Source: Hoeflea algicola (lineage in GTDB: Bacteria; Pseudomonadota; Alphaproteobacteria; Rhizobiales; Rhizobiaceae). From it: DNA of 64,000 bases. The first letter of the stretch is position 1, and each line of letters opens with the position of its first letter. Position numbers and translations under genes: made by a program. The DNA is taken from assembly GCF_026619415.1 (NCBI RefSeq), contig NZ_JAOVZR010000001.1:4758501-4822500 (forward strand). The letters run 5' to 3'. A model generated the notes under the pieces. That model was given only the letters and a program-made list of their open reading frames with translations. It had not been told where the DNA came from and made no database searches. Of this stretch, positions 62,228 to 64,000 are shown piece after piece.

Positions 62228-63465
62228 GCCCGCACCACCCGGCCGGCCTTGGCCGATAAAAGCGTGTCGGCGAGCGTGCCGAAGGCAACATCGACGCCGA
62301 GATTGCCGGGCGCGTAATAGGCCCATTTGCCTGAATTGGTCATCACTGCACCTGACAGATCGCGGATGATGGCGGTGACATAGGTACAGGTATCGACCAC
62401 CACGGTGACTCCCGCCTGTTCAAGCCGTGCAGCGTTTCCGGTTGCGCACAGCCGTTCCCATTCATGCCGTCCGGTATTGACATAGACCGGTACCGCGAAC
62501 GGTGCGAGATCCAGCATCGCCAGCAGCCGTTCGAACTCCGAGAGTGAAAAATGCGGTGTCCCCAGTGCCGCGGCGGTGATCGGCGCACCCTCGGTTACGG
62601 TGCCGAGCCGGTTCAACACCGCTGCAACTTCGCCAGCGTCCAGACGCGCCACAACCGGCACGTTACGGCCACCGGTGGCGGTCTCGAGATCAGGGGCCTC
62701 CGGTGTCAGGCCGACGGCATGGAACATCGCCACGCTGCCCGACGATGCCGCCGCGGCCCCCAGCGCTTTCAAGTCGTCTTCGCTGGTGGCGGCGGGGAGA
62801 CCGGTGATCGCGGCGATGGTATCACCGCACTCGCGACCGACAACAAGGCCCGCAGCGACCGCAATGCCGCCGGCCTGGTCGGCAGTGGCATTTTCAAGCC
62901 CGGTGATTTCGACGATCGCCCCGGCAAGCCGGTTTTCGCTACGATGCAGCCCGTAATCGGGCACCCTTCCTGTCAGCGCACAGGCTAGGTCGATGAAATC
63001 GCCATAGCGGTTGGTGCGCGCGCCGATCACCGAATTGGCAAACACGATAGCGTTGGATTCGGCCCAGGCAAGCTGGTCGCCGAGTTGCGGTCTCAGCAAT
63101 GTCTGGTAGGGCGCACAGGTAAAGCTCGGCGTGCAGCCCAGTTCCAGATGCGCTTCCATCAACCGTTTGCCGGCAGCACCAAGCTCCGCCTCGCCGATAT
63201 AGAGTTCTGGATGAATGAGATCGACCGAGCCGACATTGAGCGTCGTCGGCACCCGCACCCGGCCTTGCTGTGCCACGAACCGTTCGACGAAATCGAGGCT
63301 GGCCTGGCCGTGATAGAGACAACCGTCGACATGGGCTTGCGCGCAGTCAACCAGCCGCTCGGCACCCACCGCCTCGGCAAAGCGCAATACCAGCCCAAGC
63401 GCGTCTGCAGCGGCAGAGCCATGGGTTCCCGAGAGCATCTCACGATCGTCCTGCGTCAATTCCAC
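62224..63465 (-). CDS. Aconitase X large subunit (DUF521), probable cis-3-hydroxy-L-proline dehydratase
   Basis: A 413-residue catalytic subunit. [48 protein letters not shown] at the N-terminus, [21 protein letters not shown] (about residues 144-164) and VVDTCTYVT near the C-terminus are family features. Several Cys (in [23 protein letters not shown]) could bind the iron-sulfur cluster. GTG start at 63463-63465 with GGGAG upstream. No proline catabolic neighbours (such as a pyrroline reductase) are visible, so the pathway link is inferred from the family. Confidence 0.9.
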
Positions 63466-63703
63466 CCCGGCATCTCCCTGCTTGCGAACATGCGGCGAAC
63501 CTAGATCTGTTCATCCTTAAATGGAAACGTTTTGCTTGGGTATCGAGCTCTGCATGCCCTGCCTCTGTCCGAACGCCGGGCAGTATCGATCTCGCGAGCA
63601 AAGGGGCAAACGGCGCGAGGATCCGTCGTTGCGAAGCGAGCCGAAAACTCCCGTTGAAAGGGGCATTGAGGTCGGCACATGAGGTTGGCAAAACGGTGCA
63701 GAT

Positions 63704-63728
63704 AAAAAAGTATTGACGATACTTTTTT
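63704..63728. promoter_or_regulatory. Upstream perfect palindrome over the -35 region
   Basis: AAAAAAGTAT, a TGACG spacer and ATACTTTTTT form a perfect 10-bp inverted repeat. The TTGACG -35 box (63713-63718) lies in its centre. It has the same half-site/5-nt spacer geometry as the second palindrome, 25 bp away centre to centre, and is a more degenerate match to the NsrR consensus. Confidence 0.6.
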
Positions 63729-63741
63729 AAAGATGTATCTG
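63713..63741 (+). promoter_or_regulatory. Sigma-70-type promoter of the Tat-exported protein gene
   Basis: TTGACG (63713-63718), a 17-nt spacer, and TATCTG (63736-63741) make a good -35/-10 pair. Both boxes fall inside palindromic operators, so a bound repressor would block RNA polymerase. The ATG is about 75 nt downstream. Confidence 0.6.
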
Positions 63742-63752
63742 AAATACATCTT
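63730..63752. promoter_or_regulatory. NsrR-like operator over the -10 region
   Basis: AAGATGTAT, a 5-nt spacer and ATACATCTT form a perfect 9-bp inverted repeat. Read as two 11-bp halves around one base, the right half (AAATACATCTT, reverse AAGATGTATTT) matches the NsrR consensus AANATGCATTT except one T for C. NsrR is an Rrf2-family iron-sulfur repressor that senses nitric oxide. The site covers the -10 box of the downstream gene. Confidence 0.7.
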
Positions 63753-63817
63753 ACGGAATCACCCACCACGAACCTCAACAGGGATCAAGGTAAGTCTTGA
63801 ATTAAAAAGGGAAAATC

Positions 63818-64000
63818 ATGGGAATGAACGATATCAGCCGACGTGGCCTTGTGAAATTAGCGGGCATTGGCGCCGCTGTGGCGACACAGCTTTCAGCAAC
63901 CGAAACGGCGTATGGATTTACCGCAGGCGCATCGGAAACGATCGCGCCTGTTGCCCCTCAAACACACAAATTTAACATGACCGTTGAAGAGGCGCGTTTA
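63818..64000 (+). CDS. Tat-exported protein, 3' truncated by window edge (possible cupredoxin enzyme such as NirK)
   Basis: The first 61 codons: MGMNDISRRGLVKLAGIGAAVA, a twin-arginine (SRRGLVK) signal, then QTHKFNMTVEEARL at the edge. Tat proteins usually carry a cofactor. The segment HKFNMTVEEARL resembles the first strand of copper nitrite reductases and multicopper oxidases (xxFxMTIEExxxxI). Together with the NsrR-like operators this makes a NO/nitrite-linked enzyme plausible, but 61 residues cannot decide. AAAAGGGAAAATC precedes the ATG. Confidence 0.6.
   Translation, partial: MGMNDISRRGLVKLAGIGAAVATQLSATETAYGFTAGASETIAPVAPQTHKFNMTVEEARL

Follow-up and report, generated by a model that had tools for sequence, protein, structure and literature searches.

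In Hoeflea algicola, two adjoining perfect palindromes (P1 and P2) lie across the -35-like and -10-like hexamers ahead of an operon headed by a multicopper oxidase (MCO) gene, and most likely (probability about 0.78) serve as tandem operators of an NsrR-type Rrf2 repressor, most likely encoded by the same module and released by nitric oxide (NO). The palindromes match the NsrR motif, a Rrf2 gene stands at the far end of the operon, and all of these are carried by a block of extra DNA. The window denotes the whole stretch of 64,000 nucleotides that was analysed; positions beyond its right end are given on locus L002 (window position = L002 position + 63600).

Table 1. Coordinates of the palindromes, promoter-like hexamers, genes and block, in window numbering unless marked L002.
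Feature	Position	Strand	Remarks
Left part of the ~6.5-kb block missing in relatives	63466..64000		continues ~6 kb beyond the window to about L002:6424; ends good to ~20 bp
P1, palindromic operator (predicted), 11-5-11	63703..63729	.	-35-like hexamer at centre
TTGACG, -35-like hexamer	63713..63718	+	TTGACA at the equivalent place in L017
P2, palindromic NsrR-consensus operator (predicted), 9-5-9	63730..63752	.	
TATCTG, weak -10-like hexamer inside P2	63736..63741	+	absent from promoter scanner calls
Tat-signal two-domain MCO gene, 5' end	63818..64000	+	367 aa, runs on to L002:1321
MCO	L002 218-1321		PDB 2zwn 403 bits, 3g5w 344 bits
Pseudoazurin-like gene	L002 1348-1845		90.4 bits, below cut-off 109.85
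NirK (AniA-type), third gene	L002 1903-3006		TIGR02376 324.5 bits, cut-off 296.3
DUF1775 gene	L002 3269-3790		
CopC-CopD gene	L002 3849-5591		
Rrf2 regulator gene	L002:5851-6291	-	upstream ATG gives 6312
NsrR-like site before the local rrf2 gene	L002:6331-6353		PWM 17.3, third of ~102 kb

Palindromes P1 and P2 and the NsrR motif

P1 (TAAAAAAGTAT-TGACG-ATACTTTTTTA) and P2 (AAGATGTAT-CTGAA-ATACATCTT) are both perfect inverted repeats with 100% complementary arms and 5-nt centres, and they adjoin each other with an offset of 25 bp between the starts of their 23-mers, the spacing that an earlier note on this DNA had given. The promoter proposed there, TTGACG-N17-TATCTG, was recovered under the palindromes, with TTGACG in the centre of P1, TATCTG overlapping the left half of P2, and a spacer of 17 nt. 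TATCTG is a poor -10, which counts against the main reading, and in the nearest relative the corresponding hexamer, CATCTA, is poorer still; the promoter scanner made no + strand call at P1/P2. P1 was also considered as a terminator, and rejected with no terminator called in 63460-64000.

Against the published NsrR consensus, gATGyAT-(N5)-ATrCATc (PMC1274295, accessible text), P2 agreed at 14/14 defined positions, bearing out the closeness that the earlier note had claimed for it. P1, described there as perfect yet A/T-rich, is both: it lacks the ATG/CAT core and agreed at 14/18 positions of the extended consensus, a partial fit. A position weight matrix (PWM) was built from 26 sites (at least 16/18) in other loci, own locus excluded, with the seed loci taken as the best 80 of 175 MCO-bearing loci in named genomes. 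Ranking of ~102 kb of own DNA, which is free of seed circularity, placed P2 first (34.1), P1 second (20.0) and the site preceding local rrf2 third (17.3), with the next-best score at 10.9; within the window, scores of at least 8 occurred at the P1 and P2 positions only.

For chance controls, 1 Mb of first-order Markov sequence of local AT-rich composition contained six 9-5-9 palindromes, no 11-5-11 palindrome, three 23-mers that equalled or exceeded the score of P1, and none that reached that of P2; 1 Mb with whole-window composition contained five 9-5-9 palindromes and none of the other three. The 64-kb window itself holds six 9-5-9 palindromes, far above the Markov null, and a palindrome by itself is therefore not special; the other four scored between -6 and -45 on the NsrR matrix. 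Chance palindromes were rejected as an explanation on motif match, local background and placement. Over the own locus and the best 80 of 175 MCO loci, 79 sites of at least 14/18 were found, vs 11 in one Markov resample, an enrichment that is partly circular because the PWM seeds come from the same 80 loci. Near MCO, nirK or rrf2 starts (-400 to +30 bp, starts extrapolated from tblastn) lay 51 of these 79 sites, vs 4.6 expected; 46 of the 81 loci, early-ending contigs included, had no site of at least 14/18 near such a start.

Genome-wide, AAGATRYAT-N5-ATRYATCTT occurred exactly at two places only, P2 and C1:4060587, and with up to three mismatches at six places, vs three for the backwards control pattern. 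Weaker matches include one at 416317, inside an ORF, and one at 4566737, adjoining an ORF read as a transposase. The second perfect palindrome of this type (AAGATACATTGACAATGTATCTT, L149:7588-7610, G000:C1:4060587) stands ahead of an operon in the order DUF2249 - membrane protein - DUF2249/TusA - Nfu, and a further NsrR-like Rrf2 gene lies close by. This resident regulator (gene C1:4058844) could be the main binder of P2, and perhaps of P1, with the local Rrf2 protein having another role or none, a reading that overlaps the main one in that sites and signal are alike and the protein is different. Its nearness to the only other exact site in the genome speaks for it, as do TTGACA-centred sites (0-1 mismatches), found in this genome and in five more of the 18 Hoeflea genomes. 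However, the module encodes a regulator of its own, preceded by a site (17.3), and the same type of regulator stands beside MCO - nirK in L017 too, which leaves the resident protein a possible but clearly less probable binder.

The operon and paired sites in related loci

The gene downstream of P2 carries a Tat signal and is cut by the window edge at 64000, as the earlier note stated, whereas the suggestion there that it might be NirK-like did not hold. It encodes a two-domain MCO, and was rejected as NirK on a TIGR02376 score of 99.3 bits (cut-off 296.3) and on its nearest structures, the two-domain laccase 2zwn and the multicopper oxidase 3g5w, which we take to be the N. europaea enzyme. Rightward extension, proposed in the same note, showed that the cut gene heads a series in the order MCO - pseudoazurin-like - nirK - DUF1775 - copC/copD, with rrf2 following on the opposite strand; the third gene scored above the NirK cut-off (Table 1), with best solved relatives 5tb7 and 1kbv, presumably Neisseria AniA. 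The two findings on which the note was to fall are thus not those obtained: the operon holds a nitrite reductase, and a Rrf2 regulator exists. The gene order suggests that the MCO operon is co-transcribed.

Among the best 80 of 175 MCO loci, NirK was encoded on the strand of MCO and within 4 kb of it in 67, a Rrf2 gene lay within 5 kb in 22, and both were present in 20; for the 45 of these loci with at least 3.5 kb on both sides, the counts were 42 for NirK and 13 for Rrf2. DUF1775 is copper-related. The DUF1775 and CopCD queries hit none of the 80 loci (best 80 of 175) at E<=1e-6, and the two genes therefore seem to be additions. The two proteins tested against defence families gave no match. 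Each of the five structural genes seems to encode a copper protein or to serve in copper handling, as would be expected if the operon were mainly copper-controlled and the palindromes belonged to a copper regulator; that reading is very improbable, given that none of the block's six genes encodes a copper regulator, and given the NsrR consensus fit of the palindromes, and the closeness of NirK to MCO in the 67 loci above.

Paired sites (each at least 14/18, 15-60 bp apart) were found in 10 of the 80 other loci (best 80 of 175), or 11 of 81 with the own locus, at spacings of 25-28 bp in six loci, 33-37 bp in three, and 42 and 52 bp in one each; L021 has an additional pair at 39 bp. Nine of the ten paired loci carry labels of gammaproteobacterial groups, and one is from Sneathiella. 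The two nearest loci are L017 (Candidatus Halocynthiibacter alkanivorans), which shares the order MCO - pseudoazurin - nirK - rrf2(-) with the Hoeflea module, and L018 (Pseudovibrio japonicus), which has the MCO - pseudoazurin - nirK order. The main site of L017 has its best partner exactly at -25 bp (score 13.0), and this partner retains GTATTGAC-AT and also GTATTGACAAT. For L018, the best partner likewise falls at -25 but scores 1.2, a value matched by partners in many unpaired loci; a half-site GGTAT-N5-ATACC stands at the equivalent place (L018:9900-9945), and the nearby Rrf2 gene encodes a different, 33%-identical protein; regulator and half-site have perhaps changed together. The paired sites are thus partially conserved among MCO loci.

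These comparisons bear on whether P2 is the sole operator and P1 an A-tract or UP-like element round the -35 that is palindromic by accident. The A/T-richness of P1, its missing ATG/CAT and lower score (20.0 vs 34.1), and the drop in partner scores to 13.0 (L017) and 1.2 (L018) fit such an element. It is nonetheless an unlikely account, since 23-mers at the level of P1 arose three times per Mb of AT-rich Markov sequence and an 11-5-11 palindrome not once in 1 Mb, the L017 partner keeps GTATTGAC-AT, and L065 has AAAAAGTATTGACAATGCATCTT upstream of MCO. NsrR-type pairs recurring at related promoters offer a testable design for switch-like control.

The local Rrf2 regulator and the proposed mechanism

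A Rrf2 gene, which the earlier note had advised looking for nearby, lies ~5.5 kb past the window end. Its product matched PF02082 (Rrf2) at 109.3 bits (cut-off 30), and fell below the cut-offs of both NCBIfam models tried, NsrR NF008240 (101.5 bits, cut-off 182) and RirA NF008886 (143.6 bits, cut-off 193); five other host Rrf2 proteins are also under the NF008240 cut-off, at 93.5-115.7 bits. The best solved relative is ScNsrR (S. coelicolor NsrR, PDB), described in the accessible text of PMC5411485 as holding its cluster by Asp8 and three Cys, with an Asp8-Arg12 salt bridge. The local regulator carries Asp8, Arg12, Cys91, Cys99 and Cys105, the same residues as in the ScNsrR ligand set and salt bridge, and its recognition helix (SRNHVMKI) resembles that of E. 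coli NsrR (SRNHMVKI), unlike that of RirA (SELFLFKI). On these residues the protein appears to be NsrR-type, while remaining outside the NsrR equivalog. An extra Cys94 in the regulator clade, shared by all but one (P0128) of the 11 other clade rows, provides both the E. coli NsrR-like X4 and the RirA-like X7 spacing. A Roseomonas relative with 49-50% identity is encoded divergently from hmpA.

A RirA-like protein sensing iron or its cluster, with the operon answering iron and not NO, was weighed on the same data. The RirA model outscores the NsrR model (143.6 vs 101.5 bits), identity is 46% to S. meliloti RirA and 37% to E. coli NsrR, and the Cys spacing is the RirA-like C-X7-C-X5-C. However, S. 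meliloti RirA has Asn8 in place of Asp8 and the other recognition helix, the operator matches the NsrR consensus, and the host owns a RirA-like protein (L004) that pairs with S. meliloti RirA in the Rrf2 tree (100/97; 10 homologue rows left out). The local regulator lies outside that pair and groups with the L017 protein (100/98), in a backbone that does not resolve its position with E. coli NsrR. We regard iron control as improbable.

For the tandem operators of an NsrR-type repressor, the proposed sequence of events is as follows. The regulator would sit as an [Fe-S] dimer on each site, covering the -35 from P1 and the -10 from P2, and occupation of both would block transcription of MCO - pseudoazurin - nirK - DUF1775 - copC/D by occlusion. 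NO, or nitrite by way of NO, would then damage the cluster, so that the dimer leaves and the operon is induced. Release by NO is predicted by analogy with ScNsrR, whose cluster is broken by NO, freeing the DNA (PMC9338935, PMC5411485, accessible text). Induction may amplify itself, because NirK makes NO. The weaker third site suggests autoregulation of rrf2, and the spacing of P1 and P2 hints at cooperative binding.

The probably imported block, its host and known systems

The operon, the Rrf2 gene and its site lie in a block at 63466-70024 (in window coordinates, with both ends placed to within about 20 bp). At E<=1e-60, MCO was found in none of 17 Hoeflea congeners (two of them ~75% complete) and none of 83 further relatives, and matches to the flanks, from AcnX to DUF1499, lie 0.6-1.2 kb apart in 15 of the 17 congeners vs 7.1 kb here; in the remaining two, the sole AcnX match is a distant one at another place in the genome. 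AcnX of the present genome shares 98% identity with a Hoeflea sp. protein. DNA-level comparison with six relatives showed both flanks in four, with 65-297 bp between them vs ~6.5 kb here. GC content is 0.46 for rrf2, 0.536 for MCO and 0.612 for CopCD, with the window at 0.608. Because the flanks adjoin in 15 of 17 relatives and MCO occurs in none of the 17, the block looks imported together with its regulator; import is probable, with the direction of gain read from these comparisons, and loss of the block in all relatives is less likely. Among 72,556 plasmid records no MCO match was found at E<=1e-40, and among 384 others sampled from the class none at E<=1e-90. The named-genome scan (best 80 of 175) found alphaproteobacterial MCO loci, including L017, L018 and L020-L022, so the gene is rare in alphaproteobacteria and not absent.

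Besides the nirK of the block, the host carries another (493 bits), with TTGATCTAACGCAA 243 bp upstream of its start. This box matches TTG-N8-CAA, for which about 0.2 matches are expected by calculation in the 0.8 kb examined, and one half only fits the NnrR consensus ctTTGcgnnnncgCAAag, so that it hints weakly at a possible FNR/NnrR-type site; no NsrR-like site was found in the 18 kb of the second nirK (best PWM 6.1). The earlier note had held NsrR control notable in a lineage where NnrR is usual. Alphaproteobacterial NsrR is not new and, since the module looks imported, this is not a resident regulon that has switched its regulator. Four more three-Cys Rrf2 genes (L145, L146, L147, L148; G000:C1) have neighbours connected with respiration or NO: ccoN (PF00115), with ccoO/P recognised by eye; cydA/cydCD, also by eye; a gene that resembles globins by eye, for which Pfam gave nothing above cut-off; and a gene for a ScdA_N-hemerythrin (Ric/YtfE). 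Weak sites score 15.8 ahead of rrf2-cco and 9.7 in the stretch from rrf2 to ric.

Searches of the genome gave four PF00115 hits, read as two aa3 and two cbb3 oxidases with no NorB among them by eye, and no PF00042 globin; two nirK genes thus stand in a genome where neither NorB nor such a globin was found. One conceivable extension, which we rate as a long shot, is that the module forms a mobile, self-regulated NO-homeostasis cassette: NO from periplasmic NirK would lift the double block by positive feedback, the co-expressed MCO with O2 would return NO to nitrite in place of the NorB and flavohaemoglobin not found here, and the double operator would hold the loop off below a threshold, making induction switch-like.

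Both NsrR-linked nirK and tandem NsrR sites are already known, and what differs here is the gene content, the position of the regulator and the double operator. The nearest described case is Sphingomonas wittichii RW1 (PMC4123721, accessible text), where nirK is the last gene of a four-gene cluster (Swit_1789-93) with an NsrR gene upstream, nitrite raises nirK mRNA, and both NsrR control and lateral transfer have been proposed. It resembles the present case in joining nirK with an NsrR gene in an alphaproteobacterium by proposed lateral acquisition. Operators do not figure in that text. The cluster differs in that the Hoeflea regulator stands at the distal end, on the opposite strand, and, as far as the description allows comparison, in the pseudoazurin-like gene between MCO and nirK and the DUF1775 and copC/D genes after them; the S. 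wittichii cluster is described as homologous to those of Nitrosomonas and Nitrobacter (PMC4123721). For Nitrosomonas europaea, the accessible text of PMC2844404 and PMC1274295 has a Rrf2-family NsrR regulating a cluster with nirK and a multicopper oxidase. NsrR-type regulator, nirK and MCO are thus common to both systems, N. europaea being betaproteobacterial. The middle genes of its cluster are presumably cytochromes c, and we know of no DUF1775 or copC/D there.

The accessible text of PMC1274295 also predicts Neisseria nirK to be under NsrR, as it does nirK of C. violaceum; in Neisseria, norB and nirK are transcribed divergently and have FNR and NarP sites. NirK goes with NsrR there as here, and that text mentions no MCO or copper-handling genes for Neisseria. 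Tandem NsrR sites overlapping a mapped promoter are predicted for Bacillus subtilis hmp (PMC1274295, accessible text), where gene and phylum differ from the present case. Two NsrR sites, one over a putative -35, are reported at the mamH promoter of the alphaproteobacterium Magnetospirillum gryphiswaldense (PMC11014258, accessible text), where NsrR activates mamH, NirS is the listed nitrite reductase and the consensus is degenerate. As to alphaproteobacterial NsrR, the accessible parts of the sources name it in R. capsulatus E1F1 only (PMC1274295), in Paracoccus denitrificans (PMC5588039) and in Sphingopyxis granuli (PMC6472365), call it unreported in the class (PMC11014258), and give no obvious NsrR for B. 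japonicum (PMC4064962). Across the literature covered, chiefly titles, abstract starts and open text, neither this gene set nor a tandem of NsrR sites at the nirK of any alphaproteobacterium is described. The block would be the second described case, after S. wittichii, of nirK entering an alphaproteobacterium seemingly with its own NsrR-type circuit, and since the host also has a resident nirK, a single cell allows two regulatory settings of the same enzyme class to be compared.
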